Shown: positions 6,910 to 27,800 of the stretch, piece by piece | How the letters are laid out: every line of letters starts with the position of its first letter | Numbering within the stretch: position 1 is the first letter of the stretch | IMG/VR virus record: IMGVR_UViG_3300025632_000035 | Span: 1-38,484 of that record | DNA: 38,484 nucleotides | Source of the DNA: a virus | Direction: 5' to 3' (one strand) | The notes under the pieces: generated by a model | Seen by the model: the letters and a program-made list of their open reading frames with translations, nothing else | Told to the model about the DNA's origin: nothing | Database searches by the model: none | Translations under genes and position numbers: made by a program

Positions 6910-6910
6910 C

Positions 6911-6938: not shown

Positions 6939-6957
6939 ATAAAGAAAAGGAGAACTC

Positions 6958-7364: not shown

Positions 7365-7477
7365 TTATAGATGTTAGAAGTGACGAGTGTGTTTATATTA
7401 CTATAAATAATACTGTGTATTATATTGATGATTCAACAGGCGAACGCATTATGAAAAAATGGAAAGAAGAAAAATAA
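7361..7477 (+). CDS. Microprotein (38 aa)
   Basis: ATG 7361 overlaps the previous stop by 4 nt. The peptide is probably a small beta-sheet (YITINNTVYYIDD) with a basic end (RIMKKWKEEK). It fills the 114-nt space between two genes, with the next ATG 1 nt after its stop. Function is unknown. Confidence 0.48.
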   Translation: MIIDVRSDECVYITINNTVYYIDDSTGERIMKKWKEEK

Positions 7478-7478
7478 A

Positions 7479-7694: not shown

Positions 7695-7702
7695 GGGGGC
7701 AC

Positions 7703-7870
7703 ATGAAAGAGCCAAAAGAAATACATTTAATGGATAAGCAAATAATTATAAACATCATGGATAAGATAAAAGAACAATACAATGTAGACAATCTAAAAGA
7801 AGATTCATTGGATGCTTTTCTCCATCTGTGGGATGAATTAAAGGAGGCTATCTATGCCAAAAAAAGATGA
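7703..7870 (+). CDS. Small helical protein (55 aa)
   Basis: The only purine-rich tract before the ATG is GGGGG (7695-7699), part of the repeated GGGGGCAC motif, which would have to act as its ribosome-binding site at a close spacing of 3 nt. The product is a charged helix (IINIMDKIKEQYNVDNLKEDSLDAFLHLWDEL). It overlaps the next gene by 17 nt. Function is unknown. Confidence 0.5.
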   Translation: MKEPKEIHLMDKQIIINIMDKIKEQYNVDNLKEDSLDAFLHLWDELKEAIYAKKR

Positions 7871-8093
7871 TGAGTTGGTCATACCAACAGAACTATTAGA
7901 GAAAGACCCTAATGAACTTGCACAAAATGAGAGCGAGATACAAACGATAATATCGTATCTACAAAAAACTCGTGAGAATATTAGGTCAGCAGAAAAAGCA
8001 GGTAAGAGAATTACTAGCAAGACAGCAAAGGTAAAGACACCCGAGCCCGTAACACAAGGCAGTATACTTGATGTACTGATTAAGGATGTATAA
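7854..8093 (+). CDS. Hypothetical acidic/basic helical protein (79 aa)
   Basis: An AAGGAGG ribosome site lies 7 nt before the ATG. The protein has an acidic N-terminal half and a Lys-rich second half (SAEKAGKRITSKTAKVKTPEPVTQG). Its stop overlaps the start of the nuclease gene (TAATG), so it is probably expressed with the recombination module. No known fold is seen. Confidence 0.6.
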   Translation: MPKKDDELVIPTELLEKDPNELAQNESEIQTIISYLQKTRENIRSAEKAGKRITSKTAKVKTPEPVTQGSILDVLIKDV

Positions 8094-9055
8094 TGGATTT
8101 ATTAGACTCAGTTAAGTTACCAAAGTATGTATACGAAGACGGTAAACCTAGACAAAATGTATGGGATACTTCAAGCCTATCATCTTTCCTAGCTTGCCCT
8201 CGTCTGTATAATCTTACAAACCTAAATGGTTACAAGATGAAATCATACGGCACAGTAACAGGATTTGGGTCAGCAGTACATGACGGTTTTGAAATACTGG
8301 ACACAGGAAAGTTTAACAAAGAGAGCAAAGAAGAATCCATAAATAAAGCCATTAAGTATGTGCTAGAAACATATGGAGAAGATTTACAAAGTGCAGAAGA
8401 CAAAGCAAGGGGACTTGAGGCGGCACTCAGAGCAATAGTATGGAGAGCAGAAGAATATTGGGATGATACCATTACAATAGCTTCCATGCCCGATGGTGCC
8501 CCCTGTCTCGAAACAAGATTTGAAGTACCCTTTGGTAATCACAGGTTCTCTGGTCGTATAGATAAGATAGTTTTATTTGCAGGGGAGTTATACTTGTGTG
8601 ATACAAAGACAACTAAAGCGGCGTTGAGTGAGCAATATTTTAAAATGTACAGACCAAACAACCAGGTGTATGCATACTTGTGGGCGGCTCGTGAAATCAT
8701 GGGGTTACCTGTTAAAGGTTTTATTATTGAAGGAGTGCAAACAGGTGCTAACTTCTGTAGATTTAATCGTACAGTATTTAATGTATCTAAAACTTCTATT
8801 AATGAATGGTACATGGATGCACAGTACTCATTATCTGTAGCGGATTCTTTTTGGGATGCGGGTTACTACCCTGCAAACTTTACCGCATGTGGTAACTATG
8901 GTGGCTGTAAGTTTAGAGAAGTGTGTGGCGAATCACCAGAACATAGGACTACATTACTTAACGAAGACTTTGATAGGCAAGTGCATGAAAGTCTACATCA
9001 AAAGGGTGAGTTAATTCATGCAGAAGATTTATTTAAAAAACAAAATAAAAAATAA
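8093..9055 (+). CDS. PD-(D/E)XK nuclease with Fe-S cluster (RecB/Cas4-like)
   Basis: This is a predicted DNA exonuclease of the PD-(D/E)XK superfamily (PDDEXK_1 group). Catalytic motifs are GSAVHDGFE with His63, GRID with Asp157, LCDTKTTK with Asp170 and Lys172, and QVYAY with Gln191. Cys35 together with Cys266, Cys272 and Cys278 would bind a 4Fe-4S cluster, as in AddB and Cas4. The gene precedes a Sak4-like ATPase and an SSB-like protein, so it probably processes DNA ends for recombination or replication. Confidence 0.85.
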   Translation: MDLLDSVKLPKYVYEDGKPRQNVWDTSSLSSFLACPRLYNLTNLNGYKMKSYGTVTGFGSAVHDGFEILDTGKFNKESKEESINKAIKYVLETYGEDLQSAEDKARGLEAALRAIVWRAEEYWDDTITIASMPDGAPCLETRFEVPFGNHRFSGRIDKIVLFAGELYLCDTKTTKAALSEQYFKMYRPNNQVYAYLWAAREIMGLPVKGFIIEGVQTGANFCRFNRTVFNVSKTSINEWYMDAQYSLSVADSFWDAGYYPANFTACGNYGGCKFREVCGESPEHRTTLLNEDFDRQVHESLHQKGELIHAEDLFKKQNKK

Positions 9056-9058
9056 TTG

Positions 9059-9086
9059 TTGACAATTTTTGTCAATATGCTATTAT
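9059..9086 (+). promoter_or_regulatory. Promoter TTGACA-16-TATTAT with operator-like palindrome
   Basis: TTGACA (9059-9064) and TATTAT (9081-9086) are spaced 16 nt, 20 nt before the ATPase ATG. The -35 is part of a perfect 7-bp inverted repeat, TTGACAATTTTTGTCAA (9059-9075), that could bind a dimeric repressor. AGGAGA provides the ribosome site of the gene that follows. Confidence 0.65.
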
Positions 9087-9105
9087 TACAATACAGGAGA
9101 TAAAT

Positions 9106-9921
9106 ATGGCAAGTATTAGAAATCATACATCAACTGATGTAACTAAATTACTTCTCGTTGGAGATAGTGGCTCGGGTAAAACTGCAACGCTAGCAACACT
9201 AGCTAATGCAGGTTACAACCTACGCATACTAGACTTTGATGATGGGTTAGCTATCTTACCAGAGTTCTTAATAGACTCAGCGGTGGATAGAGTAAGTTTC
9301 GTAACACTAAAAGATCCAATAGGCAAAGCAGATGCATTTCGTAAAAGTGCAAACTTAATTGGTAATTGGAAAGATGGTGACGAAGACTTTGGGCCTGTTA
9401 ATAAATGGACAAGTAAAGACGTTCTAGTTATTGACAGCTTAACATTGATGGGTGAAGCGGCTTTAAGGGGGGCACTATCGTTTAATAACAAGAAGCCTAC
9501 CGACCAAGCTACTCAACCAGAGTGGGGAACCGCCGCTCGTGATGTGCAAAACATTGTTCAATATATAACAGGTTCAGAAGTTCCGTGTAATGTGGTAGTG
9601 ACCACACACATGCAATACATGGAAGGAGACACGGGAGTTTCCAAGGCATACCCAACTAGTGTCGGGTCTAAACTATCTACTAAACTGGGTAGGTATTTTA
9701 ACTGCGTGTGCAGAATAGATACTAGAACATCCAGTAAGGGAACTGAGCGTACCTTACGAACTGTTTCAGATCATAGAATGGATTTAAAAGTAACGGCTCC
9801 AAGTTTACTTGAGGCAAACGTTCCTTTAGATTTAGCTAAGTTATTTGAAGCTATTCAAACAAGTGCTCGTAAAAAATTGTCGAAAGACAATGTCATTAAC
9901 ATCAAAACAGGAGGTAAATAA
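9106..9921 (+). CDS. RecA-fold ATPase, Sak4-like recombinase (AAA_24)
   Basis: This is a predicted phage nucleotide-binding protein of the AAA_24 / Sak4 type, a minimal RecA-like ATPase that stimulates single-strand annealing. Walker A is GDSGSGKT (19-26), with the typical follow-on ATLANAGYNLRILDFDDG. Walker B is DVLVIDSLTLM near residue 108, and a VVTTHMQYM sensor-like segment lies near 165. At 271 residues it is of expected size. The SSB-like gene begins at its stop codon (TAATG overlap), the usual partner order for Sak4. Confidence 0.82.
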   Translation: MASIRNHTSTDVTKLLLVGDSGSGKTATLATLANAGYNLRILDFDDGLAILPEFLIDSAVDRVSFVTLKDPIGKADAFRKSANLIGNWKDGDEDFGPVNKWTSKDVLVIDSLTLMGEAALRGALSFNNKKPTDQATQPEWGTAARDVQNIVQYITGSEVPCNVVVTTHMQYMEGDTGVSKAYPTSVGSKLSTKLGRYFNCVCRIDTRTSSKGTERTLRTVSDHRMDLKVTAPSLLEANVPLDLAKLFEAIQTSARKKLSKDNVINIKTGGK

Positions 9922-10358
9922 TGGCAGATATTCAAAACTTTTTAACCATGCATCCAGACGATATACCAGAAACGCAGGTGCTACCAGAAGGTAGTTACGA
10001 CTTCGTTATCACTAGTTATCGTTCGGATAAAGTTGGTGAGAAGCAAAATGAGATTGTGCGTATCAACGTAAAGGCTCAAGCAGTTCTGGAATCAGACATC
10101 ACAGATGGTGATTTGGAAAACTGTGAACCAACCAGATTGGAGTTCTGGGCTACTAAAAATGCTCTGAAACAGGGTAACCCTGTTATCTCATTGAAATCTT
10201 TCTTGTTTAGTGCTATGGGCATGGACAAGGTAGGCTTTGGTGAAGCATTAGAGCAAAGCATTGGTCAAACATTTAGCGGTGTTGTGAAACACGAAATGGT
10301 TGGCAGAAATAAAGATATACTACAGGCTTCGGTCAGTCGTATATTGAAAGCGGCATAA
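9921..10358 (+). CDS. SSB-like protein accompanying the Sak4-like ATPase
   Basis: This 145-residue protein opens with 'TQVLPEGSYDFVITSYRSDKVGEKQNEIVRINVKAQ', a beta-rich, OB-fold-like pattern typical of the DUF669/SSB-like partner encoded next to phage annealing ATPases. It is translated from a 1-nt TAATG overlap with the ATPase gene and GGAGG upstream. It probably coats single-stranded DNA. Direct DNA binding is inferred from context rather than from motif identity. Confidence 0.62.
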   Translation: MADIQNFLTMHPDDIPETQVLPEGSYDFVITSYRSDKVGEKQNEIVRINVKAQAVLESDITDGDLENCEPTRLEFWATKNALKQGNPVISLKSFLFSAMGMDKVGFGEALEQSIGQTFSGVVKHEMVGRNKDILQASVSRILKAA

Positions 10359-10362
10359 TCAT

Positions 10363-11439
10363 ATGGGTGAGTATGCAGTGCACAGAAGAGTTGCGTCACA
10401 ACTTGTAGATAAACCACAGATCTGCATTGTTATGGATCATCCTTCCAACGACGAAGTACGTTTGAATAAAATACTTGCAGGTGATTTTATTATAAGCAGA
10501 ATCTGTACACAAGTCGGTATTGACATTAACAAATGCATGCTCACCCACGCATTCCAACTAAAGCCTGCACAGGACAACTTACAAAACTTCTTTCATAAAA
10601 GAAGTGAGTACAAAGCTTTATGCAAAGACTCTGAGTGGAGAACGCCTTATCCGATTACCACCTATGGATACCTCAAACAGGAGATGGGTCAAGACTTAGA
10701 ACGTTTGTATAATGAAATCAATGAAGCACAGCCTAACGTAATTATTGCAATGGGTAGTATTTCATTGTGGGCACTGACGGGCTTTGATAAGATTGGTGTG
10801 TATCGGGGTGCTGTGATTGAATCTTCTACGGATTCTCTTAACAGAAATTACAAAATTATACCTTCTTATAGTCCGTCAGCCGTCTTTAAAAATTATGGAT
10901 TTAGATATCATCTTTATTCAGATTATAAAAAAGCAAAACGAGAATCAAGAACATCAAAGATAAATTACGAAGAACGAGAACTTTGGATAGAACCAAGCAT
11001 AGAAGACTTATATACATTTGAAAGTAAATACATCAAAGATTTGGGTGACACCAAGCCTTTATCATTCGACATTGAAACAGCAGGCGGGCAGATAACTTGT
11101 ATTGGGTTTGCCCCCTCCTTAAACCACGCAATCGTTGTACCATTTACATATAACTATTGGGCTGAACCCGATAGGAAAAAAGCTTGGGCATGGGTTAAGA
11201 GATTATTAGAAGACGAGACCATAGTTAAAGTTGCACAGAACCAGACATATGATGTGTCATGGTTGAAGTATATGCAAGACATAGAAGTCAGAGGAACGAT
11301 CCACGACACTATGCATGCACAACACTCATTGCAACCAGAACTAGAAAAAGGTCTTGGATTCCTGGGCTCCACATACACTAACGAGGGTGCATGGAAAACT
11401 TTAGCCAAGTTTTCTGACAGCACAAAAGCCGATGAGTAG
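10363..11439 (+). CDS. DNA polymerase, N-terminal part: UDG-like domain plus 3'-5' exonuclease ExoI/ExoII
   Basis: This looks like the N-terminal half of a SPO1-type family A DNA polymerase. Residues 15-195 resemble a uracil-DNA-glycosylase fold, including IIAMGSISLWALTG (127-140) and IIPSYSPSAVF (165-175), where Ser replaces the usual His of the HPS motif, so glycosylase activity is doubtful. Residues 230-350 carry the DnaQ-type proofreading motifs: ExoI FDIET (Asp236, Glu238) and ExoII NQTYD (Asn293, Asp297). ExoIII is missing and is found at the start of the gene at 11967. The ORF ends after the WKTLAKF region, where intact relatives continue. Confidence 0.8.
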   Translation: MGEYAVHRRVASQLVDKPQICIVMDHPSNDEVRLNKILAGDFIISRICTQVGIDINKCMLTHAFQLKPAQDNLQNFFHKRSEYKALCKDSEWRTPYPITTYGYLKQEMGQDLERLYNEINEAQPNVIIAMGSISLWALTGFDKIGVYRGAVIESSTDSLNRNYKIIPSYSPSAVFKNYGFRYHLYSDYKKAKRESRTSKINYEERELWIEPSIEDLYTFESKYIKDLGDTKPLSFDIETAGGQITCIGFAPSLNHAIVVPFTYNYWAEPDRKKAWAWVKRLLEDETIVKVAQNQTYDVSWLKYMQDIEVRGTIHDTMHAQHSLQPELEKGLGFLGSTYTNEGAWKTLAKFSDSTKADE

Positions 11440-11804
11440 TGAAACGACCCAATTTTTTCTCAGCTAAATCCATAGATAAAGTATGGGATCAGCAATCCGA
11501 ATCTTATGTAAGATTGTGGCGAGCCGTCCTTGACCAACTGTTGCAAGATTTATTGTATGAAGGTAATGGTAAAGAAGATAGGAAAGCCCACATATATTCG
11601 TGGCAGTGGTTTGATAAAGATATAGAAGACTTTGAATCGGTGTGTGACTTGGCTGATTTAGATGCGGCTAGAACAAGGACAGAGATTAACAAACTAATGG
11701 AGAAGGTATATGGCAGTAACTATAAACGAAAATTTGAAGAAAGCAAAAGAGCTATTGAGTGGCGACAGAGAAAAAGAATACGGAAACAAAAAAGCCAATC
11801 ATGA
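11439..11804 (+). CDS. Hypothetical protein inserted between the polymerase parts (121 aa)
   Basis: The gene starts with GTG in a 1-nt overlap with the stop of the exonuclease half (TAGTG). The product has a Trp-rich helical body (YVRLWRAVLDQLLQDLL, YSWQWFDKDIEDFESVCDLADLDAARTR) of a kind seen in uncharacterised phage proteins, then a strongly basic tail. There is no HNH, GIY-YIG or LAGLIDADG motif. Its last 95 nt also encode the start of the next gene in another frame. Confidence 0.62.
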   Translation: MKRPNFFSAKSIDKVWDQQSESYVRLWRAVLDQLLQDLLYEGNGKEDRKAHIYSWQWFDKDIEDFESVCDLADLDAARTRTEINKLMEKVYGSNYKRKFEESKRAIEWRQRKRIRKQKSQS

Positions 11805-11976
11805 AAACATAGCTAAACTTTGGACTGCTTATCTTAAGACAGAAGTTTCTGCCCACGATGTAGCTATCTGTATGCTACTACTAAAAGTTGCACGACTACA
11901 ACAAGGAACTCCTAGTGCCGATACATATATTGATATGGTAGGGTACTCGGCTATTGCAGGAGAGATATGCGAATAA
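11710..11976 (+). CDS. DUF6378-like small phage protein
   Basis: The 88-residue product shows 'LLSGDREKEYGNKKANHENIAKLWTAYL ... VAICMLLLKVARLQQGTPSADTYIDMVGYSAIAGE', which matches my memory of DUF6378, a small helical family found in phages and prophages. The function is not established. It overlaps the previous gene by 95 nt and the polymerase gene by 10 nt, and its C-terminal coding DNA includes the polymerase ribosome site (GCAGGAGAG). Confidence 0.68.
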   Translation: MAVTINENLKKAKELLSGDREKEYGNKKANHENIAKLWTAYLKTEVSAHDVAICMLLLKVARLQQGTPSADTYIDMVGYSAIAGEICE

Positions 11977-13511
11977 TTAAAAATACAGAAATAGGCAAAC
12001 ACGAGTTATCTAAGAATCAAATGAATTGGGTGTACTGTGCTTTAGATTGCACACTTACTCATGAGATATGGACAAAGATTTACGAAGAGTTGGATGAAGA
12101 AGTAAGGGGCACATATCAATTTGAATTAAACAGCTTAAAGCCTGCGATGAGTATGATGTTAAAAGGACTCAAAGTAGATGAGGAGAAAGTACGTAGTATA
12201 AAGGAACCTCTTAAGAAGAATAGATTAAAACTAGAACGTATGTTACATTTGTTTGCCAATGCTGTATGGGGTAAAGATTTAAATCACAACAGCCCTGTTC
12301 AACTTAAAAAACTTTTATACGAAGAACTAAACTTACCACCTGTTGTTTCCTACAAGGGGGGCAAGCAAAAGATATCTACAGATAGAGCGGCGTTGGAACA
12401 ATTATCAGAAACATATCCAAGAGCCAAACCATTCTGTTACACCATACTAGCACTGCGTGATATCGACAAACACTTATCTGTATTGGCATCTACAAGAGAC
12501 AAAGACGGGCGTATTCGTTGCTCGTACAATGTAGCAGGCACAGAGACAGGTCGTTGGTCTTCTTCAGAAAGTCCTTGGCGTACAGGTACTAACTTACAAA
12601 ATGTGACGAAAGATTTACGCGCTGTATTCATACCTGACACAGGACAAAAAATGTTCTATGCGGATTTAGAACAAGCAGAATCTAGAGCGGTTGCATATTT
12701 AGCAGGCGATCAAAATTATATAGATGTTTGTGAGAGTACAGACTTGCATACAGAAGTTGTTAAAATGGTCTGGCCCAACATGGGTTGGTCTGGAGATCCT
12801 AAACAAGATAGAGCACTAGCGGACAAACCTTACTATTTGCATCACAGTTACAGAGATATTTGTAAACGAGCAGGACATGGTACTAACTATGGTGTTACGG
12901 CACACTCGCTTGCACGTCAGATTAAAATAAAAGTATCACAAGCTACAAGATTTCAGTTGCTTTATTTTGGTGGTATGGTATCATTAGAATCAGTAGAACG
13001 TTGGCATAAACAAGACATCAAGGGGGGCTTCAGAGAATTGATTGACCAAGGAGAAAAACTATCTGGCAATATGTTAAAAGTTAAAGGGGCGTTTCCTGGA
13101 ATCAGAGATTGGCACCGTGCTATTCGCTTAGAACTAAATGAAAAGGGTTGCTTGACAACTCCATTAGGCAGACGCAGACAGTTTTGGGATAGACTATCAG
13201 ACAATTCTACCTTACGACAAGCCATTGCTTATGTACCACAATCAACAATAGGTGACTTACTCAATCTAGGTTTGTACAGAGTATGGAATGAGTTGGCTAG
13301 TGAAGGTGTTGAAGTGTTGGGTCAAGTACATGATGCAATACTCGGTCAATGTCCTATAGATAAAATAGATGAACTAATGCCAAAAGTATTAGAAAGAATG
13401 CACAATCCATTGATGGTCGATGGACGTAAAATGATTATACCGTCTTCAGTTGAGATTGGTGACACATGGAAGGATATGAAAACATGGCACGGAATTACCC
13501 AGATTACATAA
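11967..13511 (+). CDS. polA: Family A DNA polymerase, C-terminal part (ExoIII motif plus polymerase domain)
   Basis: Replicative DNA polymerase domain. It opens with the last proofreading motif, YCALD (Tyr23 to Asp27), missing from the gene at 10363. The polymerase motifs follow: TGRWSS (194-199), TNLQN (208-212), motif A YADLEQAESR with Asp233, motif B R296-x3-K300-x3-H304-x3-Y308-G309, and motif C QVHDA with His455 and Asp456. Position 304 aligns with E. coli Phe762, normally Phe, Tyr or Leu, and here is His. The gene has its own ribosome site and start, so the enzyme is made as two chains that must associate. No intein or intron motifs were seen at the break. Confidence 0.9.
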   Translation: MRIIKNTEIGKHELSKNQMNWVYCALDCTLTHEIWTKIYEELDEEVRGTYQFELNSLKPAMSMMLKGLKVDEEKVRSIKEPLKKNRLKLERMLHLFANAVWGKDLNHNSPVQLKKLLYEELNLPPVVSYKGGKQKISTDRAALEQLSETYPRAKPFCYTILALRDIDKHLSVLASTRDKDGRIRCSYNVAGTETGRWSSSESPWRTGTNLQNVTKDLRAVFIPDTGQKMFYADLEQAESRAVAYLAGDQNYIDVCESTDLHTEVVKMVWPNMGWSGDPKQDRALADKPYYLHHSYRDICKRAGHGTNYGVTAHSLARQIKIKVSQATRFQLLYFGGMVSLESVERWHKQDIKGGFRELIDQGEKLSGNMLKVKGAFPGIRDWHRAIRLELNEKGCLTTPLGRRRQFWDRLSDNSTLRQAIAYVPQSTIGDLLNLGLYRVWNELASEGVEVLGQVHDAILGQCPIDKIDELMPKVLERMHNPLMVDGRKMIIPSSVEIGDTWKDMKTWHGITQIT

Positions 13512-14740
13512 AGGCTTGTGTAGATGCAGTTAAATATAGCCCCATTCCTAAACCATTTGCACAATGGACAGCTATCTCATCAATCGCAGGTGCATTGGGA
13601 AGAAAAGTTTGGTTTCCTATGCCTAACTATAACATTGGGTCTAACCTATTTGTTATCCTAATTGCATCGCCTGGTCGTAATAAATCAGTAAGTTTAATAG
13701 TACCTTTCTCAAAAGTATTCAGTAGACTTACATCACCTGTAGGTGCAACAGAAGAAGATCATAATTTTAATTCTGGTTTAGATGCATATGGATTACGCAA
13801 TCATCCTTTGTATTCTATACAAGATAGAATTACTCCAGAGAAACTTGCGGTTGATATGACTAAGATTACTCGTATGGATTTACGTTTATGTACAGAAGAG
13901 AATCCAGAATTTTATGATTCATCTTTGACTCTAGTAACTTCAGAGTTTGGTACATTCATGGGCAGGAACGAAAGATACTTGCAAATGTTTTTAACAGATA
14001 TGTGGGATGCAAAAGATCAGTACAGTCACAAAACAAAAACATCTGGTGAATATATTATTGAAGGGCCTTGTTTAAATTGGATTGCGTGTGCAACACCAGA
14101 ACAGTTTGTAGATAACTTACCAGAAGACGCAAGGTCACAAGGACTACTATCACGCATAATACCAATCTTTTACGAAGGCGAAAGAATACCACAAGACTTA
14201 AATCAAAAAGTTATTAGTGAAAGTATGCTCAACAATTTACGTAATGACTTAAGTCATGTTGCTAAAATGTATGGGCCTATGACTTTTCACAAAGATGCTT
14301 TTGATAAGGCCAATGAAGATATTTTTTACAACTTAAAACCAGAGCCAACAGATCCACACTTATCTGAGTACTGCCAAAGACGTGTATCCCACTTCTTAAA
14401 AATAGCAATCTCAGTGTCTGCTTCAAGACGTACTTCTCGTGAGATCATGTTGGAAGACTGGGAACTTACTAAAGAGATTATGTTTGATATGGAACAGAAC
14501 ATGCCTAAAGCACTGGAGGGTTTTGGTATGGCAAGAACAGGGCGTATTGCTCACGATATGAGGGTGTGGTTGGATGCCACACTTGCAGGCAAAAAGACGC
14601 ACATAAGTATGCGTGCTTTTAAACGTGAGTTACTTAGAAAGATTCCCAATCCTGGCGAATTAGATCAAACTATAAGAGCAATGGAAGATTCGGGTTACAT
14701 AAAAGTTGAAGGTAATTTAGTCTTTCCTTGTAAAAAGTGA
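13484..14740 (+). CDS. DUF3987-like replicative helicase/ATPase
   Basis: The protein resembles the DUF3987 group of phage ATPases thought to serve as DNA helicases. A Walker A-like loop reads ASPGRNKSVSL, with Lys and Ser aligned to GKS though the first Gly-x4-Gly-Lys pattern is altered. Later segments include LVTSEFGTFMG, DMWDAKDQYS and WIACATPEQF, consistent with RecA-like core strands. The C-terminus looks winged-helix-like (AFKRELLRKIPNPGELDQTIRAMEDSGYIKVEG). ATG 13484 is preferred because AAGGA lies 9 nt upstream; ATG 13466 is an in-frame alternative. It overlaps the polymerase gene. Confidence 0.68.
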   Translation: MARNYPDYIKACVDAVKYSPIPKPFAQWTAISSIAGALGRKVWFPMPNYNIGSNLFVILIASPGRNKSVSLIVPFSKVFSRLTSPVGATEEDHNFNSGLDAYGLRNHPLYSIQDRITPEKLAVDMTKITRMDLRLCTEENPEFYDSSLTLVTSEFGTFMGRNERYLQMFLTDMWDAKDQYSHKTKTSGEYIIEGPCLNWIACATPEQFVDNLPEDARSQGLLSRIIPIFYEGERIPQDLNQKVISESMLNNLRNDLSHVAKMYGPMTFHKDAFDKANEDIFYNLKPEPTDPHLSEYCQRRVSHFLKIAISVSASRRTSREIMLEDWELTKEIMFDMEQNMPKALEGFGMARTGRIAHDMRVWLDATLAGKKTHISMRAFKRELLRKIPNPGELDQTIRAMEDSGYIKVEGNLVFPCKK

Positions 14741-14769
14741 TTGATTGTTAAAATGAAAAATGTTATACT
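14741..14769 (+). promoter_or_regulatory. Promoter TTGATT-17-TATACT for the RNR genes
   Basis: TTGATT (14741-14746) and TATACT (14764-14769) are separated by exactly 17 nt, just after the helicase stop and 32 nt before the nrdA start. AAAGGA is the ribosome site. This gives the reductase genes their own transcription start within the replication block. Confidence 0.62.
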
Positions 14770-14801
14770 GCAAACTTTGCGTGTGAAAATAAAGGAAAAT
14801 T

Positions 14802-16550
14802 ATGAAACTAGAAATTGATATGACTAAAGACAATCTGCTACCTCAAAATGCAGTAGATATCTTACGAGATAGGTATATGTTACCAGAAGAATTAAGCCCA
14901 CAAGAGTCTTTTGCTAGAGCTTGTATGGCATTTGCTGATAATAAAGCACATGCTGAAAGGCTGTATAAATATGTATCTAATCTGTGGTTTATGTTTGCAT
15001 CACCACTCTTATCAAATGGGGGCACTTCAAGAGGTCTCCCTATATCTTGTTTCCTAAATTACGTACCAGACAGCCGTGAAGGACTGGCGGATCATTACAA
15101 TGAAAACATATGGTTATCTAGTATGGGGGGCGGAATAGGTGGTTATTGGGGTCATATTCGCTCACAGGGACAGTCAACTAGTACAGGTAATAAAACCACA
15201 GGGGTAATTCCTTTTATGCACGTAGTAGACAGCCAAATGCTTGCTTTTAACCAAGGTTCTACCAGACGTGGCTCATATGCCAGTTACATGGACATATCAC
15301 ACCCAGAAATCGTAGAGTTTATAGAGATGAGAAAACCTACAGGCGGCGATATCAATAGAAAGAATTTAAACATGCATCATGGTATAAACATACCAGACAA
15401 GTTTATGAAGGCTGTAACAGAGGATTTAGATTGGGATCTTATTGATCCGAACAGCAAAGATGTAGTACAAACAGTAAAAGCCAGAACTTTGTGGATTAAA
15501 CTTATGGAAACACGTATGCAAACTGGTGAGCCTTATCTAATGTTTATTGACACAGTTAACAAACATTTACCTAAAGAATTGAAAGCTAAAGGTTTAAAAG
15601 TAAATCACTCCAACTTGTGTAGTGAGATTACCTTACCTACAGCAGATGACCGAACAGCAGTATGTTGCCTATCAAGTTTAAACTTAGAATACTTTGACGA
15701 GTGGTCTCAAGATGAAATGTTTATCGAAGACATTATGCGTATGTTAGATAATACGTTGACTAGCTTTATTAAGAGTGCCCCCTCTAGCATGTGGAGAGCA
15801 TCTAAAAGTGCTGAGTCAGAACGCTCTATTGGTTTAGGCACTATGGGTTTTCATTCATACTTACAAAAAAATAACATAGCTTTACAAAGTCCTATGGCGA
15901 TGGGCCCTAACTTAAAAATATTTAAACATATTAAAAAACAAGCAGATCAAGTTAATCTGTTATTAGGAAAAGAACGCGGCGAAGCACCCGACATGAAAGG
16001 TTCTGGTAAAAGATTTGCACACATGATTGCTATTGCACCAAATGCAAGTAGCTCTGTTATATGTGGTAACACTTCACCAAGTATAGAACCCTTACGTGCA
16101 AATGCATTCTCGCAAAAAACATTAAGTGGTACGTTCTTAATTAAGAATAAGTACTTAGAACAATTATTAGAAAAGAAAGGAAAAAATACAAAAGATGTTT
16201 GGCAAACTATTATTACTAGTGGAGGAAGCGTTTCTACCTTGGACTTCCTCAATGATAAAGAAAAAAATATATTCAGAACTGCTATTGAAATCGACCAAGC
16301 CTGGCTCATTGACCTCGCAGGAGAAAGACAAAAGTATATCTGCCAAGCGCAATCGTTAAATTTATTTTTCCCACCTGATGTAGAAGTCAGAAGATTAAAT
16401 AATGTACACAAACGTGCGTGGACTAAAGGATTAAAAACGTTATATTACTTACGCAGTGAAGCTATCAGACGAGCAGAAAATATATCTGTTAAAGTCGAAA
16501 GACAAGTACGTGCAGATAGCGAAGAAGAATGCGTAATGTGCGAGGCATAG
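14802..16550 (+). CDS. nrdA: Ribonucleoside-diphosphate reductase alpha subunit, class Ia
   Basis: It reduces ribonucleotides to deoxynucleotides for phage DNA synthesis. The active-site set is complete: Cys83 (LPISCFLNY) and Cys288 (AVCCLSSLN) as the redox pair, Asn271-Leu-Cys273-Ser-Glu275 with the thiyl-radical Cys, Tyr548-Tyr549 (TLYYLRS) for radical transfer, and a C-terminal CVMC pair (577-580) for re-reduction. At 582 residues it is shorter than cellular NrdA and lacks an N-terminal ATP-cone, so dATP inhibition is unlikely. nrdB starts 12 nt downstream. Confidence 0.96.
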   Translation: MKLEIDMTKDNLLPQNAVDILRDRYMLPEELSPQESFARACMAFADNKAHAERLYKYVSNLWFMFASPLLSNGGTSRGLPISCFLNYVPDSREGLADHYNENIWLSSMGGGIGGYWGHIRSQGQSTSTGNKTTGVIPFMHVVDSQMLAFNQGSTRRGSYASYMDISHPEIVEFIEMRKPTGGDINRKNLNMHHGINIPDKFMKAVTEDLDWDLIDPNSKDVVQTVKARTLWIKLMETRMQTGEPYLMFIDTVNKHLPKELKAKGLKVNHSNLCSEITLPTADDRTAVCCLSSLNLEYFDEWSQDEMFIEDIMRMLDNTLTSFIKSAPSSMWRASKSAESERSIGLGTMGFHSYLQKNNIALQSPMAMGPNLKIFKHIKKQADQVNLLLGKERGEAPDMKGSGKRFAHMIAIAPNASSSVICGNTSPSIEPLRANAFSQKTLSGTFLIKNKYLEQLLEKKGKNTKDVWQTIITSGGSVSTLDFLNDKEKNIFRTAIEIDQAWLIDLAGERQKYICQAQSLNLFFPPDVEVRRLNNVHKRAWTKGLKTLYYLRSEAIRRAENISVKVERQVRADSEEECVMCEA

Positions 16551-16562
16551 AAAGGATAAAAA

Positions 16563-17522
16563 ATGTCAGTATTTAATAGTAGATCATATTATAAACCATT
16601 TAAATATGAGTGGGCATTTGAAGCCTATGATATGCAACAAAAGATGCATTGGTTACCAAGTGAAGTACCGCTTCATGAAGATGTCAATGATTGGAACAAT
16701 AGAATGAATGTAGGGGAAAAGAATTTAGTAAAACAAATTTTAACTTTCTTTACTCAAGGTGATGTAGATATAGCACAAGCTTATATGGATGTCTATATGC
16801 CTATGTTTAAACAACCAGAAATCAGAATGATGCTGTCTGCTATTGCAACTAGCGAAGCAAACCATGCACATTCTTATTCTTTGTTAAATGACACAATAGG
16901 TATGGATGATAAAGACTATAAAGCTTTTCAAGAGATAAAGGCCATGAATGACAAACATGAGTATTTGTGGCGTAATAAGGGGGGCACGGAGGAAGAGAAG
17001 ATTGTCAGAGACATGGCAGTTTTCTCTGCCTTTGGCGAAGGCTTGCAACTATTTGCTAGTTTCGTAATGCTCTTGAATTTTCAACGTTTTGGTAAGATGA
17101 AAGGTATGGGTCAGATCGTGGCGTGGTCTATCCGTGATGAGTCTCACCATGTCGAGAATATGATTAAGTTATTACATTGTGTATTAGATGAAATGCCTCA
17201 CGTATGGCATGATGATTTTAAAGCTACCTTGTACCAGATCTGTAGAGAAATGGTTGACCTTGAGGATAAGTTTATAGATCTAGCATTTAACTTAGGCCCT
17301 GTAGAAGGACTAGAACCAAGCGATGTAAAGCAATATATAAGACATATTGCTGACAGAAGATTGCTACAATTAGGCCTAAAACCTAATTATGGCGTAAAAG
17401 ATAACCCTCTCGAATGGGTCGATTGGGTAGTGAGTGGCGTAGAACATACAAATTTCTTTGAGAATAAAGCTACAGAATATGCCAAAGGTACTCTGACAGG
17501 TACTTGGGATGAAGCTTTCTAG
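16563..17522 (+). CDS. nrdB: Ribonucleoside-diphosphate reductase beta subunit, class Ia
   Basis: It supplies the tyrosyl radical to NrdA. Di-iron ligands are visible as an early Asp (QGDVD, about 67), Glu98 and His101 (SEANH), Glu159 (FGEG), and Glu193 and His196 (RDESHH). The radical tyrosine is conserved as Tyr105 (HAHSY). AAAGGA precedes the ATG. The final codons (Glu-Ala-Phe-stop) lie in an 8-bp tandem repeat (AGCTTTCY, four copies). No glutaredoxin or thioredoxin gene accompanies the pair here, so host reductants are probably used. Confidence 0.96.
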   Translation: MSVFNSRSYYKPFKYEWAFEAYDMQQKMHWLPSEVPLHEDVNDWNNRMNVGEKNLVKQILTFFTQGDVDIAQAYMDVYMPMFKQPEIRMMLSAIATSEANHAHSYSLLNDTIGMDDKDYKAFQEIKAMNDKHEYLWRNKGGTEEEKIVRDMAVFSAFGEGLQLFASFVMLLNFQRFGKMKGMGQIVAWSIRDESHHVENMIKLLHCVLDEMPHVWHDDFKATLYQICREMVDLEDKFIDLAFNLGPVEGLEPSDVKQYIRHIADRRLLQLGLKPNYGVKDNPLEWVDWVVSGVEHTNFFENKATEYAKGTLTGTWDEAF

Positions 17523-17544
17523 CTTTCCAGCTTTCCAGCTTTTC
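17513..17544 (+). repeat. Four tandem 8-bp repeats AGCTTTCY at the nrdB 3' end
   Basis: AGCTTTCT (17513-17520), AGCTTTCC (17521-17528), AGCTTTCC (17529-17536) and AGCTTTTC (17537-17544) follow each other without gaps. The second copy contains the nrdB stop codon. The array probably arose by slippage. No clear secondary structure was found. Confidence 0.6.
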
Positions 17545-17567
17545 TGGAGAGAAGGGGTAAATAAGTA

Positions 17568-17596
17568 TTGACTCAAAATCAAAAGTATGTTATTAT
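17568..17596 (+). promoter_or_regulatory. Strong promoter TTGACT-17-TATTAT
   Basis: TTGACT (17568-17573) and TATTAT (17591-17596) are spaced exactly 17 nt. The predicted transcription start falls at about 17603, right at the AAGGGGGGCAC copy (17604-17614). The transcript would begin directly with the long hairpin described at 17617. Confidence 0.68.
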
Positions 17597-17602
17597 TCTA
17601 AA

Positions 17603-17690
17603 TAAGGGGGGCACATAAGGGCAGTCCCATTGTAAAGGTTCTGAGCTGGGCAGCTCGTCCCTACCTTTGCAGTGGTCTGCCCTTTAGCTT
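17603..17690 (+). ncRNA. Candidate small structured RNA: long imperfect hairpin
   Basis: P1 pairs AAGGGCAG (17617-17624) with CTGCCCTT (17677-17684), 8 perfect bp. After a 2-by-1 bulge, P2 pairs 17627-17639 with 17663-17675, 13 bp including two G-U wobbles. The tip is GAGCT/AGCTC (17643-17647 with 17652-17656) with loop GGGC, whose GGG could pair with CCC at 17659-17661. TAGCTTTT follows P1. It may be a short RNA ending at its own terminator, or a leader attenuator for the downstream gene. It does not fold as a tRNA. Confidence 0.55.
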
Positions 17691-17699
17691 TTGTGTGTG

Positions 17700-18020
17700 A
17701 TGGAATTTTCCAAAGACGAACTAAAGAAGTATACTAAAGAATATCAAGTACGGGGCCGTGAGGCTTATTCAAAATCCCGTAGTCGCAAGACAGATCCAAA
17801 AGAATCTGCGAAAGCATATAGAGAATATCTGGACTGTCAAGCTATGGTAAGAAATATTAATTATAAAGTAAATCACGATACGTGGTTGTATGATGATCTG
17901 CCTGGTGGCAGGTTGGTGAAATACTTTAAAGTATTGGCATCTGGCGATCCAGAAAGACAGGGTCAAATTGTAGATGCTTTTGGGAGGGTATGTGTACCAA
18001 GAGAAAGAGACGAAGCATGA
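17700..18020 (+). CDS. Hypothetical basic protein (106 aa)
   Basis: The first in-frame codons upstream are TTG and GTG. ATG 17700 (MEFSKDELKKYTKEY) is the more likely start although no good Shine-Dalgarno sequence is present, perhaps because the leader hairpin controls initiation. The protein is Lys/Arg/Tyr-rich and helical, with a central DTWLYDDLPGGRLV. No family is recognised. Confidence 0.58.
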   Translation: MEFSKDELKKYTKEYQVRGREAYSKSRSRKTDPKESAKAYREYLDCQAMVRNINYKVNHDTWLYDDLPGGRLVKYFKVLASGDPERQGQIVDAFGRVCVPRERDEA

Positions 18021-18216
18021 TGGCTTTGCGAAAAAACTATACTACGATTTTCGTAGAACCAAAAAAGGTTTATCACATTGGGATAAACTAGACTTTAAAG
18101 AAAGAGATGAGTGGCGTGGTATCGCTCAACTTAAAAAGCGTGAGAGCAAATACTTTAAAAAACTAAGAAAACAGGCAGGAGAAAAAGATGAAAGACACAC
18201 TACAAGAATCGGTTAA
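17974..18216 (+). CDS. Small basic hypothetical protein
   Basis: This frame overlaps the preceding gene by 47 nt and the metallophosphoesterase by 29 nt. A GTG at 17992 preceded by GGGAGGG is an alternative start. The product is Lys- and Trp-containing (LYYDFRRTKKGLSHWDKLDFKERDEW) and helical, which would suit DNA binding. It is unrecognised, but its coding character and fit between neighbours support it. Confidence 0.5.
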   Translation: MLLGGYVYQEKETKHDGFAKKLYYDFRRTKKGLSHWDKLDFKERDEWRGIAQLKKRESKYFKKLRKQAGEKDERHTTRIG

Positions 18217-19420
18217 TGCTGTTGTATTAGCCAAAGGCAGTAAGTCCGAAGCATCAAGAAACTTAAAAATACCACGCACCACTTTAGTGAGTAGATTGGA
18301 AGCGGCGGAACGTGCTGGTATCACACCAACAGTTAAATCACCAGACTTAGAAGTTGCTTTAGCAGAGCAGAAAATGGCTAATGATTTACAAGTTAAGGAC
18401 TTAAAAAGACAGCTAGAAGAAGCTACATTGCAGAATGTAACCTCTAGTTATATACGTAAGCATGTATTTGAGTTAGGTAAATACAATGCAAGACCACCTA
18501 AATGGTTGATTAAATCATCGCCCGCAAAGGGGGCACCAGGTGTTCCTACTTTATTCCTAAGTGACTTTCACTATGGTGAAGTAGTTAAACCCGACGCTGT
18601 GAATAATCTAAATAAATTTGATAAAAAGATTTCGCAGTTGCGATTGAAGTCAACTGTAGAAACAGCTATCGATTTGTGTCAGAATCATATGGTAAACCCT
18701 AAGTACCCAGGCATTGTCTTGGCTCTCGGTGGTGATATGATGTCTGGTACTATTCATGATGAACTAACAGAAACAAACGACGGAACTTCTATAGACCATG
18801 TGTTAGAATTATTTGACCAGTTAGTCTGGGCAATCAATGCATTGGCTGATAAGTTCGGTAAAGTTTTTGTACCTACTGCATACGGCAATCACTCTCGTAT
18901 GTATCAGCAGTATAGAAACAAAGAAGCGGCTCATTTAAGTTTTGATTGGTTGTTGTATAATATGTTGGAGAAACATTATACTGCGGCTAAAGATGACAGA
19001 GTCCAATTTCAAATTCCTGTTGGATTTGACACGTACTATAAAGTATATAATACTAGTTACTTGCTTACACACGGAGACAGACTCGGTGTGAGAGGTGGTA
19101 CTGGTATCGTGGGGATGTTAGGCCCTATAGCGCGTGGAGTCCAAAAGGTAAGATCGGAATACGCTAACCTTAATAAGTCCATTGATATGGTTATTATGGG
19201 GCATTACCATCAGTATATTTCGATTAAAGGAGCTATTGTTAATGGCTCACTCAAAGGTTATGATGAGTACGCGATGGGTAATAGATTCGCTTTTGAGATA
19301 CCAAAACAAGCTTTATGGTTCACACATCCTCAGTACGGGGTGACTTTCCAAGTGCCTGTAATCGCCGAACAAGGCGTGCCAAAGGTGCCAAAGAAAGAGT
19401 GGCTACAATGGGCATCCTAA
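18188..19420 (+). CDS. Calcineurin-like metallophosphoesterase with N-terminal HTH
   Basis: A predicted di-metal phosphoesterase. The metal-binding set is complete and in order: DFH (126-128), GGD (181-183), GNH (233-235), a THGD segment near 290 and GHYH near 333. The N-terminus (LAKGSKSEASRNLKIPRTTLVSRLEAAERAG) looks like a Fis-type helix-turn-helix, followed by a coiled-coil-like linker, which suggests action on DNA or recruitment to it. Phage relatives are common, but their substrate is unsettled. AGGAG lies before the ATG. Confidence 0.85.
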   Translation: MKDTLQESVNAVVLAKGSKSEASRNLKIPRTTLVSRLEAAERAGITPTVKSPDLEVALAEQKMANDLQVKDLKRQLEEATLQNVTSSYIRKHVFELGKYNARPPKWLIKSSPAKGAPGVPTLFLSDFHYGEVVKPDAVNNLNKFDKKISQLRLKSTVETAIDLCQNHMVNPKYPGIVLALGGDMMSGTIHDELTETNDGTSIDHVLELFDQLVWAINALADKFGKVFVPTAYGNHSRMYQQYRNKEAAHLSFDWLLYNMLEKHYTAAKDDRVQFQIPVGFDTYYKVYNTSYLLTHGDRLGVRGGTGIVGMLGPIARGVQKVRSEYANLNKSIDMVIMGHYHQYISIKGAIVNGSLKGYDEYAMGNRFAFEIPKQALWFTHPQYGVTFQVPVIAEQGVPKVPKKEWLQWAS

Positions 19421-19431
19421 AAGCTGATTCG

Positions 19432-19459
19432 AGGGGGGTAGGTCTTGTATGTGCCCCCT
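19432..19459 (+). terminator. G-run/C-run hairpin before the lysis block
   Basis: AGGGGG (19432-19437) pairs with CCCCCT (19454-19459) over a 16-nt loop, right after the metallophosphoesterase stop. It could weakly terminate the upstream transcript, though only TTT follows. The 3' arm is a reverse-strand copy of the GGGGGCAC motif and lies within the spacer of the promoter at 19445. Confidence 0.4.
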
Positions 19460-19473
19460 TTGTCTGCTATAAT
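19445..19473 (+). promoter_or_regulatory. Promoter TTGTAT-17-TATAAT for the lysis/envelope block
   Basis: TTGTAT (19445-19450) and a perfect TATAAT (19468-19473) are spaced 17 nt. The spacer contains GTGCCCCC, a motif copy on the reverse strand. The first gene follows with GGAGG 20 nt downstream of the -10, so this promoter likely drives the block to 24219. Confidence 0.7.
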
Positions 19474-19492
19474 AGTAGTAACGGAGGAACTC

Positions 19493-19636
19493 ATGGAAAA
19501 TAACAAAATGACCCCACCTGTAGATTTTCAGATGGGTAAAGTAAAGATTGGCGGAGACGCTGTAAAAGTAGAGGAATCAAAAGATGACGATAACAAGAAG
19601 TCAGCTAACGAAAACAACGGAGAGAAAGATGCCTGA
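19493..19636 (+). CDS. Small polar protein (47 aa)
   Basis: ATG 19493 with ACGGAGGAAC just upstream is a far better start than the in-frame GTATG-derived start at 19445, which lies inside the promoter. The peptide is Lys/Asp/Asn-rich with no hydrophobic core (VKVEESKDDDNKKSANENN), probably disordered. The next start is inside its last codons. Function is unknown. Confidence 0.55.
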   Translation: MENNKMTPPVDFQMGKVKIGGDAVKVEESKDDDNKKSANENNGEKDA

Positions 19637-19904
19637 AGGTAAAGGAACTTACGGAACTAAGAAAGGCAGACCGCCTAAGAAAAAGAAACAAATGGGTAAA
19701 CCACCTGGGATGTTAAAAAAAATGAATACAGGCAATCCATTTTCAGCAGGTGCAAGCACAACTAAAAAGAAGGGAATGCCTACTGCAAGTAAAAAAGCAG
19801 CAGGTAAGCAAAAGCTAGCGGCTATGTACGGAGACCCTAAAAAAATAACTAGAGGCGATATTATTACTGCCGCTAAAATGAAGAAGAAAACAAAGAAAGC
19901 ATAA
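19629..19904 (+). CDS. Highly basic small protein (91 aa)
   Basis: ATG 19629 is chosen because GGAGAG is spaced 5-6 nt upstream; an in-frame ATG at 19584 lacks such a site. The product is extremely Lys-rich with Gly/Pro (KKGRPPKKKKQMGKPPGMLKK, then TTKKKGMPTASKKAAGKQK). It starts like an AT-hook (KKGRPPKKKK, close to the GRP core), so nucleic-acid or cell-wall polyanion binding is plausible. It overlaps the next gene by 1 nt. Confidence 0.6.
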   Translation: MPEGKGTYGTKKGRPPKKKKQMGKPPGMLKKMNTGNPFSAGASTTKKKGMPTASKKAAGKQKLAAMYGDPKKITRGDIITAAKMKKKTKKA

Positions 19905-20140
19905 TGATTAAGATTTGGTTACTTGTTGCTTTTATGTCATCACCTGGATGGCCATCGGTTAGAACACAAGCATTTGTGTATCCGAATGAAGGTATGTGCG
20001 TACAAGCACAAGTAGACTTTCTTAATTTTTATGAAACTCAACCAGACAGTTATAAAAATACTACAGTAATAGATGCTCATTGTTTAGAGTTTGAATCATT
20101 TGCTATTCCTGGGTTGCAAGACATGGGTTATGACAGCTAG
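19904..20140 (+). CDS. Small exported protein (78 aa)
   Basis: The N-terminus MIKIWLLVAFMSSPGWPS resembles a short signal peptide, and the mature part has two cysteines (positions 32 and 60), which may form a disulfide in the periplasm. It starts in a TAATG overlap after the basic protein. No family is recognised. Its place next to endolysin and holin suggests a role at the envelope. Confidence 0.52.
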   Translation: MIKIWLLVAFMSSPGWPSVRTQAFVYPNEGMCVQAQVDFLNFYETQPDSYKNTTVIDAHCLEFESFAIPGLQDMGYDS

Positions 20141-24227: not shown

Positions 24228-24899
24228 ATCGTTAAGTTTTTGATTTATTATTTTTTGTTCTAACTTATTACCATAACTTATAATAGCATCAATAGCTTCA
24301 TCAGATGAAGTAAGTCCTCTATCTCTAAGATATTTACCTATATACCATCTGGCATTTTCTGCTGTTTGAGAATCGGCATATTTAGTATCCATTGCACGAA
24401 CAAATACCTCTTCAGTTATAGCACTATTTTTAATTATGTCAGACGACATTTGATCATCTACACCTCTGTGACGGGCTTCATGCAGTAAAGTTCCTAAACC
24501 CTTTGGGCTATTCCATTGAGTATCATATACAGCAATAATATCTTTATCCCTAACCTCACGTTCAGGCCCTTTATCAGGATCTTCATAAAATTTTCTAGGG
24601 CCATGCTTAGCGTAATCTTCTGCATATTCTTCAACGCCCCCTATATATGTTGGATAAGTACTAGGATAATTACTTGGCACATATTGACCACCCACCCTTA
24701 ATTTAGGAGCGTTCTTATTCATTAGTTGATATACATAATCAGAATCTAAATCTTCTAAAGGGTCTAGCTGTGTCATCTTAAACAAATCATCAAGGTACCT
24801 GTAATTTCTCTCATCAGATAATTCATGTGGCCCAGTAGCATCCTTAAGTTGAATAGGCTCAGGTGGTCTTTTTAAATCTACTTTATATTTATCAACCAT
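24216..24899 (-). CDS. Zincin-like metallopeptidase, virion-associated
   Basis: Residues 138-146 (LLHEARHRG) give an HExxH motif (His140, Glu141, His144), with downstream acidic residues at 163-164 (TEEVF) as possible third ligands. The fold would be a minimal zincin, possibly acting in the virion or on peptidoglycan. It lies directly downstream of the giant virion protein with an 8-nt overlap, suggesting it is packaged or coupled with it. No signal peptide is present. Confidence 0.6.
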   Translation of the reverse strand: MVDKYKVDLKRPPEPIQLKDATGPHELSDERNYRYLDDLFKMTQLDPLEDLDSDYVYQLMNKNAPKLRVGGQYVPSNYPSTYPTYIGGVEEYAEDYAKHGPRKFYEDPDKGPEREVRDKDIIAVYDTQWNSPKGLGTLLHEARHRGVDDQMSSDIIKNSAITEEVFVRAMDTKYADSQTAENARWYIGKYLRDRGLTSSDEAIDAIISYGNKLEQKIINQKLNDKKD

Positions 24900-27800
24900 C
24901 TAGTCCCAACCTAATTCTAAGATTTCTTTTTTCATTAAAGAATTTTTTGTTTTGTTTTTCTAATCTATAATCAGTATAAAGTTCCATTTTAGCTTGATCT
25001 TGCAAACGGTCAATGTCTGGTATAAAAACCAAATTAGGGGGCACTTTAGAATTAAATCTAATTATTTCTTCAGTCAATTTCTGTATCTGTTCTTGCCCTT
25101 TGCGCATTCTAGAAGTATCACCTTCTTTGTTGCCTATAATAATTTCTTTAAAAGCGTTTGTTAGTCTAGTATTCATTCGACCTTTGTAAGCACTAGTAGC
25201 GCCACCTATTTTCTTTTCTAAAAACACAGCTTCTCTAGCCGCGGCAATTTTATTAGGTGCAAATCCAGCCGCTTTTAAAACTGCATCACTAAATCCTAAA
25301 TCATCACGCAACAATATTCCTCGCCCACTGTAAGCTTCACCTGTAAAGGCATACATGCCCCCCTTGTACGCATTTCGTATGAAGTTAGGAAACATTTTAG
25401 ATATAACCTCTCCATAATTGCCTTCTCTTATGCCATCATTTGCTATACCTTGAGCTGCTGTTATAAATACAGAACCTGGTGCTCCTAAAAATGCTTCTGC
25501 TCGTACACCTGTATTTAATCCAGCAATTGAAGCCAGTGCCCTAACTTGTGTAGACCATGGTAAGTTTCCTAAACCAACACGTCTTGATATATCCATATTA
25601 GCGTATGCGTTAAAAGCTCCTGATGTAGCAAAGGTAATCATCCGAGGACTAAATCCTACTTCATATAACATTTTTCTAAACTCATCTCTTATATCGGAAT
25701 CAATTCCTGTGTAGTATGAACGTACTATATTAACAAAGTCTTCTGCATCTTCACCACCTGGGACTGCAAAAACACCACCAGTAATCATAAGTGCAAGCAA
25801 CATCTTAGCAACCATTCTTCTATTCATTTTATTTTGAGTTTTAGATCTGTTAGGGTATGTTGTTTCAATTGTGTAACCCCCTTCTTTTTTTCTTATTACA
25901 GGCAAATTCATATAATTTACGTATTGACCAACCATTTGTGATATATAAGTCATAAATAATCCAATAGCAGAACCCCACTTTCGTCCAATCAATTGTCTAT
26001 TTATTTTTCCAAATACGCCAAAATTTTTATTGGTTACATATCTAGCTAATATTTCTGGTGTCAGTTTACCTTTATTATGTTCTATTTGAAATTGAAAATC
26101 TGCATCGTCTTCAAATAATAGTCGAGCATTGTCCAACATGCTTGGGTCATCAGTTGACATCCTGTACGCAGCAATAAATCCTGTTATACGTGAAAAAGCT
26201 TCCATACTATTAAATGCACCACCTATCAAAGTATTTTCTGCCGCACGTAAACTTCTAGCGTACAAATTCCCACCTAACATTTCTGTTATACCTGCTTCTT
26301 GAATAGCTTGTCCTTGTTTGATTGTACCATCAGCAATTGCTCTAGTAATAGCTTTGCCTAATCCAGGTCTGTCATCTGGAACTTTGTCGACATTTAAGAG
26401 CGCATCATTATATGAGCTTCCTTGAGTTATACCTCTTCCAACCATTTTTGATGCTGAAGCAACAGCTTTACTTAAAGCCAATGATGTTTTTACCGCTCCA
26501 GGCCCTGGTACAAAACTAGGATTAGTAAGCTCGGATAACATAGGGCCTGTATTTTGTATAGCTGAAAATATTTGTAAAAATGCTGAAGATATGTTGCCCC
26601 CCAGATACCACCAAAAACCCAATCTTCTAAGAGCAGCATGTTCTTGAACAGGACTATCTGCGTAGTCCATCCATTTAGTAATTAGCTTTTCTAAATTTGG
26701 ATCTTTAGTTTCTCTATTTTCTTTTCCTTTTGCATAGGAATCCGCATTTCTATAAGCTATTGAAATTTTTTTATTAAATCTATTTTTTGCAGTTTGAGCT
26801 GCCGCTGCTGAAATAAATTGCAGTGTTGATCTGGTAAAGTCTGTTTCATAGCCAGGCACACCTTCCATACCTACGCTTTTATCTTTGGGCATATAAAAAT
26901 ATTGAAAACCTGCAGTATAGTTATTTGTTTTTTCTTGCAATTCTAAAATAGTTAATTTTAATTTTTTATTTACTTCACTTCTAACTTCATTATATACTTT
27001 GGCATTGCTATCTGACAAAAAGCTGGAAACTTCATCTGCAGCTGATATTTCTCGTTTGTATAAATTTCTTAATTCTTCTATAGTAACTTTTTCTGGTTTA
27101 CTTACAGTCGCATCTGGGTATTGTAAAACCAATTCATTGTATTTTTGTCTTGCTTTTCCTGCAGTTCCTATTCCAAATGGAGTTTCACTTTCTATTTGTT
27201 CATATCGTATTAAACGACCTTGATCATCTTTTACAGCAATATAATAAGTACCATATCTAGACATTGGCGCATAATATCCTACAGATCTATCTTTGTAACG
27301 TTTAGCTTCTTTTATAAAACCATCTGTTATAAATTCTTGAGTGTTGTTTAAATCAGTCAATTCTTGTTCACTCATATATAAATTAGATTCTATTCCATAT
27401 AGTCTATTTTGATAATTGATACCTATCTGATTTAATAAATTTAAAACTCCCTGGCCTTCTTCTAATTCAAATTGTTCTACAAAAGCATTTTGCTCTTCTT
27501 CTGTCATTTGATTTAAGTCAGGTAATTGACCATTGTTTGGTAAAAATTTATTTACTAAACTAATGCCATCAATAAGGTGATCGCCATATTCACCAGAAAT
27601 TTGATCTTTTAGTATAGTTTTATTGACTGTAGCTATAACTCTATCATAGTCTTCAAAAGCTTCTGCTACATCACCTGTTAGTATAACTACTTCCCCTGCC
27701 TGAACAGAATTATTTTTATCACTACTAGCCGCAGGTGCTGTGAGTATAATTTGACCTTCTCTGTTTCTAGTATATTTAGTGTCAGTCATTAAAGCAATTA

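Follow-up and report, generated by a model that had tools for sequence, protein, structure and literature searches.

A conserved promoter-hairpin module behind ribonucleotide reductase genes of uncultivated marine phages points to a virus-encoded RNA switch or small RNA

What is encoded in the short gap that separates the ribonucleotide reductase (RNR) gene nrdB from the next gene in a virus genome known only from its DNA? In the stretch analysed here (the window; positions 1 to 38,484 of IMG/VR virus record IMGVR_UViG_3300025632_000035), nrdB, the class I RNR small subunit gene (16563-17522, plus strand; PHROG 86, E 2e-86), is followed by a gene for a 106-aa protein of no assigned function (17700-18020, plus strand), for which relatives exist, no PHROG matched and Pfam gave a sub-threshold match only. 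A first-pass annotation of the sequence proposed that a promoter in this gap drives a short, independent hairpin RNA of about 85 nt.

The proposed promoter was read correctly. It is of the sigma70 type, with TTGACT at 17568-17573, a 17-nt spacer that includes TG at 17588-17589 (extended -10, TGT-TATTAT) and TATTAT at 17591-17596 on the plus strand; TATTAT is followed by TCTAAATAAGGGGGGCACAT and then by a hairpin with the end CUGCCCUUUAGCUUUU, the segment between promoter and hairpin being AAGGGGGGCACAU. With the distance to the -10 element as the sole guide, transcription is predicted to start at 17603-17604, ~7 nt past the -10 element and 13-14 nt ahead of the main stem, in agreement with the ~14 nt originally suggested. 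A consensus scan did not make a single promoter significant (59 promoter-like sites in positions 1-20000 versus 68 in shuffles); the case for its reality is its conservation among orthologues. Among 48 distinct orthologous promoters TTGAC[A/T] is kept, 41 have the 17-nt spacing and 41 have TGn ahead of the -10 element; the TG lay outside the search pattern, whereas the invariance of TTGA and TAnnnT is partly built in because both were required by that pattern. Most spacer positions carry less than 0.7 bits, and no strong binding element is visible in the spacer. Upstream, between nrdB and the promoter, lie AGCTTTC(C) repeats (17520-17560) that resemble the terminator tail AGCTTTT, and similar repeats are present in the relative L029.

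The predicted RNA folds far better than expected for its composition. The 89-nt RNA spanning 17604-17692 has a free energy of -43.1 kcal/mol compared with -29.2 +/- 3.2 kcal/mol for shuffled sequences (z -4.4; 0/200 as good), and z is -3.3 when it is folded with 161 nt of context. The main hairpin, P2 (17617-17684), consists of an 8-bp helix (17617-17624/17677-17684), a 13-bp helix (17627-17639/17663-17675) and a 6-bp helix (17642-17647/17652-17657), so that the first two helices of the 8 + 13 + 5 bp originally proposed are confirmed and the third is longer by one pair. The tail of the hairpin, UAGCUUUU, runs to 17692. In the minimum free energy (MFE) fold, GGGGGC at 17607-17612 pairs with GCUUUU at 17687-17692, which is both the 3' strand of this basal helix, P1, and the U-tract at which transcription presumably terminates. 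Because the G-run pairs with the terminal GCUUUU, which was missed in the first-pass annotation, the hairpin begins at about +3 rather than +14, and the hairpin described earlier forms the top of a larger fold whose closing base pairs lie no more than ~3 nt from the predicted start of the RNA. A suggested loop pseudoknot between the GGGC loop and UCCC did not hold up: L004, which among variants sharing this fold is the nearest, does not keep it (loop GAGCA, flank ACCCC), and the whole apical domain is missing in L002 and L013. We also considered pairing of the G-run with the 3' arm of the hairpin as an antiterminator and rejected it, since it is possible in some members (GGGCA repeats) and is not conserved. 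Searches of the window with Rfam 15 and for tRNAs gave no match at gathering scores and no tRNA.

To learn how widely this arrangement occurs without selecting for the element itself, we anchored a survey on the exonuclease/phosphoesterase-like gene three genes downstream (18188-19420, plus strand; PHROG 284, E 1.5e-38), which yielded 80 loci. Eleven of these end before reaching the 3' end of the RNR gene; in all of the remaining loci (69/69, which include near-duplicate contigs and so represent fewer than 69 independent events) the promoter and the motif G5-6-CA[C/G] lie within 260 nt behind the RNR gene. The module order is promoter, G5-6-CA[C/G], terminator-like hairpin and next ORF, with promoter and motif checked in all 69 loci and the following hairpin in the distinct variants that were read. 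The upstream gene is nrdB in 53/69 loci and an unrelated class II (B12-dependent) enzyme, identified by three Pfam matches, in 16/69, documenting that the module survives replacement of its upstream neighbour; nrdA/nrdB (14802-17522) in one subclade and the class II RNR (L188:4571-6493) in another occupy the same slot beside the element. The downstream neighbour also varies (the 106-aa family, a 2OG-oxygenase-like gene recognised by eye without a family search, and others). Among relatives of the 106-aa protein (L001-L013), L001-L005 and L013 share the promoter, GGGGGGCAC and the outer stem and differ in their apical parts, and relatives found through nrdB (L025-L037 and L075) have, immediately after nrdB, a promoter, G5-6CA[C/G] and a hairpin that resembles a terminator; the module is absent from a more distant, Pelagibacter-phage-like group of the nrdB-found relatives. 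Outside this circle of viruses we found no counterpart. Searches for DNA similarity to isolated phages matched nrdB alone, and element-only queries gave chance AT-rich matches; MW202713, the nearest deposited phage by exonuclease (45% identity), has no element upstream; the class B motif described below occurs in 0 of 84,980 bacterial and archaeal genomes, and no exonuclease relatives were found in these genomes. Rfam gave no gathering-score match for L006, L160, L187 and L188, and lenient searches of seven relatives gave only two weak matches up to E 2, far below the gathering score. In the literature searched, which covers the field in part, we found no description of the element.

The RNAs fall into three classes, of which class A includes the window. 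All 36 distinct class A RNAs folded into one closed hairpin each, with pairing between the G-run and the U-tract (P1) in every MFE structure (L033 after extension to its true, full U-tract), and in most members only 2-3 nt separate the hairpin from the predicted 5' end. The stem sequence changes completely among relatives while pairing is kept. The first-pass annotation had named absence of covariation as evidence against the proposed RNA, and the stems do co-vary: in an alignment of 26 class A sequences, 92.3% of the cells in paired columns are paired compared with 81.8% in shuffles (0/500 reach this value), the covariation score is 0.416 compared with 0.211 (0/500), falling to 0.18 or less when the partner is slid by one base, and 11 of the 13 aligned P2 pairs show compensatory changes. 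Moreover, whole-sequence chimeras with exchanged 3' halves averaged -16.8 kcal/mol compared with -26.8 kcal/mol for native RNAs, with 27/552 as stable as native. P1 appears less secure than P2; most of its G-U pairs are invariant and, therefore, uninformative alone. In the majority of class A relatives GC or CUG precedes the U-tract; support for P1 comes from GC, present at this place in most members, and from the L028 and L030 lineages, where CAG faces CUGUUUU, maybe through a single event.

Class B (54 contig stretches, L105-L158, from a DNA pattern search) has a separate terminator hairpin with a conserved domain of ~75 nt between it and the motif, and its two helices covary (0.347 versus 0.197; 0/500 shuffles). 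The domain reads GGGGGGCACRAAGAACCUU..AGUUUGGGGA..UUCCACA, a covarying RNA absent from Rfam; we rejected a protein-coding explanation for it because the codon-position pattern is weak, start codons are missing and, in several members, the reading frame is broken shortly ahead of the motif. Class C (two sequences) has a canonical GCAGC..GCUGC-U7 terminator and a weak fold (z -1.4). Classes B and C lack a long 5'-terminal duplex and keep the motif and the terminator. The layout of the module thus survives swaps of its middle domain, the upstream RNR gene and the downstream gene. The features of an intrinsic terminator, a G+C-rich stem followed by a U-tract (4-7 U), are present in classes A and C and in most of class B; in a few class B members the tail is C-rich (CUUCUCUCUU in L119 and L143) and would make a poor terminator. 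In class A the U-tract has only 4-6 U and is often separated from the stem by AGC, so that termination could be weak.

The motif itself, GGGGGGCAC at 17606-17614 (plus strand; G5-6 CA[C/G] in relatives), is shared by all three classes and by every one of the 69 surveyed loci, and occurs four times in the window compared with 0.03 expected. It had been taken to form the 5' end of the RNA, which fits its position near the predicted start in the window; in several relatives, including the L026/L027 group, it lies 27-71 nt past the -10 element, and in class B 13-76 nt. The related sequence GGGGGCAC has 16 copies on both strands of the whole window, where a second-order model predicts 0.2; Gly-Gly codon pairs strongly prefer GGG-GGC (14 of ~80), which accounts for part of this excess. 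Behind the exonuclease gene, a terminator-like hairpin AGGGGGGYAGG..UGUGCCCCCUUUG (19430-19475) overlaps a promoter-like TTGTAT-17-TATAAT, the -35/-10 spacer of which contains the complement of the motif, with GTGCCCCC as the copy; this part of the spacer is kept in many relatives, the hairpin-less L188 included. On the minus strand, in an intergenic gap at 35585-35621, GTGCCCCC lies just upstream of TTTACT-17-TATAAT (35613-35585).

Judged by sequence comparison, the arrangement is not a product of chance, and the module points to a viral RNA of an uncharacterised kind, either a switch or a small RNA. Because a promoter ahead of a terminator is kept across this divergence and implies a short RNA as the default product, the function would be either the short terminated RNA or controlled escape from termination. 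The most natural reading of the locus appears to be a promoter-driven RNA of ~85-90 nt. The proposal of a short promoter-driven RNA is, thus, backed by the 69/69 conservation, the co-varying stems and the promoter; the RNA may or may not be independent, since the next ORF starts 8-30 nt past the U-tract in almost every variant that was read, a spacing that would suit an attenuated leader just as well.

We tentatively favour, at somewhat less than an even chance, a leader RNA that is transcribed from a sigma70 promoter, terminates early and controls whether transcription proceeds into the exonuclease/lysozyme block. We infer the start and end of the RNA, its termination, the gating and a relieving factor from sequence, and suggest the following course. 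A host-type RNA polymerase would initiate at ~17603; the nascent RNA would expose GGGGGGCAC, after which the long hairpin would fold and cause intrinsic termination at GCUUUU(U). By default, this would yield a discrete RNA of ~50-130 nt (~89 nt here) with its base closed by pairing of G-run and U-tract. Once termination is relieved, with a factor recognising GGGGGGCA as a plausible agent, transcription would read through into the exonuclease/lysozyme block. We favour a gate in cis because the next start codon lies right behind the U-tract and lysozyme genes lie downstream of the module in both class A and class B. No antiterminator gene was found among the window proteins scanned against PHROGs and Pfam, which comprise part of the ORFs. 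In a bolder version, which we regard as fairly unlikely, the RNAs would form a phage-specific family headed by G6CAC with interchangeable middles (classes A, B and C), in which a factor recognising GGGGGGCA opens the terminator closed by G-run and U-tract; if true, phages would have a previously undescribed way of gating transcription that is linked to genes of nucleotide metabolism. Of note, the window gene behind the element lacks a Shine-Dalgarno sequence (UUUUGUGUGUGAUG, 17685-17702), L002-L005 have GGAG there, and it is conceivable that the 5' G-run, bridged by the hairpin, serves as a ribosome-binding site for the next gene.

The same features could serve other ends. That the invariant G5-6CA[C/G] adjoins a hairpin of variable sequence would suit a phage sRNA acting in trans, in which the terminated hairpin is the end product and 5' GGGGGGCAC, freed from the U-tract, pairs with C-rich targets (e.g. 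GUGCCCCC) or binds a protein. A perfect complement, UAUGUGCCCCCUU, lies at 19449-19461 in the window, and TGCCCCC follows the exonuclease in 33/41 class A, 8/16 nrdJ-type and 4/4 unclassified loci. However, this site is missing in 17/17 class B and 2/2 class C loci, all of which keep the motif, and elements of the CAG type still face GUG there. Motif and site, therefore, do not co-vary, a role in trans through GUGCCCCC sites is weakened, and we rejected an antisense function at the 19449 site as not kept across classes; because the G-run is also predicted to be paired with the U-tract, we consider an sRNA in trans somewhat unlikely. We rate as unlikely a 5'-terminal protective hairpin or RNase III site, by which the hairpin at about +3 would shield or set the 5' end of downstream mRNA in read-through transcripts, in the way of the T7 RNase III sites located behind promoters: in most of class A the hairpin starts close to where the RNA is predicted to begin, it has the look of an RNase III substrate, with an asymmetric loop between a lower and an upper stem, and the next start codon follows at once, yet such a role needs no U-tract, and classes B and C dispense with the long duplex while retaining motif and terminator.

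Alternatively, a phage regulator could bind GGGGGCAC as its DNA operator, the hairpin being an unrelated terminator. The surplus of GGGGGCAC and the copies of GTGCCCCC at the two further promoters described above, with spacer copies in relatives, would fit; against this stand the contribution of GGG-GGC codon pairs to the genome-wide excess, a motif position that varies from ~+2 to ~+70 relative to the promoter, and the absence of the motif near the second promoter in class B, which together leave an operator improbable. Finally, a G-run with its first C near the start, followed by an attenuator and located beside RNR genes, recalls initiation slippage and nucleotide-sensing attenuation of the Bacillus pyrG type. 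Because the G-run is displaced from the -10 element in relatives, by at least 27 nt in L026, L027, L201, L204, L206, L209 and L213 and by 13-76 nt in class B, it is not at the initiation site in many of them; we rejected reiterative initiation of this type and regard slippage as very improbable.

The leader-RNA reading that we favour has a precedent in layout. In phage lambda, the late promoter pR' is followed by the promoter-proximal terminator tR', giving a short 6S transcript; the system is controlled through the antiterminator Q, with a Q-binding element in the promoter, and termination is relieved late in infection. As in lambda, a sigma70-type promoter here precedes a terminator between replication-type genes and a lysis-gene block, with a short RNA as the predicted default; the relation is one of layout only (for context, see PMC7171158). 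Unlike in lambda, the distance from start to terminator is ~50-130 nt here compared with ~190 nt, RNR is upstream in place of Q, with no Q homologue among the scanned proteins, and the G6CAC motif, which can move relative to the promoter, and the closure by G-run and U-tract are particular to the element. The put RNA of phage HK022 suppresses pausing and termination (PMC9378689). Like the RNA proposed here, it is structured, is encoded close to a phage promoter and acts in cis on transcription, whereas in our element a single long hairpin is itself terminator-like (sequences were compared through Rfam only). RNase III processing sites of phage T7 are hairpins that lie between genes, a short way behind promoters, and contain an asymmetric internal loop. 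The class A hairpin shares the loop and the place behind a promoter; it differs in its host-type promoter, conserved U-tract and G-run, and the long duplex is confined to class A. Like Rfam families, the element is a conserved, covarying intergenic RNA, although no Rfam covariance model matched it at gathering scores, and it adds covarying phage RNA classes missing from Rfam. Almost nothing is known about how uncultivated marine phages programme their transcription; the module would represent a conserved control point, one that is directly testable by in vitro transcription without a host.

Two further features of the window deserve mention. A 2399-aa minus-strand protein without a Pfam match (24892-32091) faces the plus-strand block, and the DNA polymerase (10363-13511) is divided over two ORFs that are separated by two small ORFs and match successive portions of PHROG 17.
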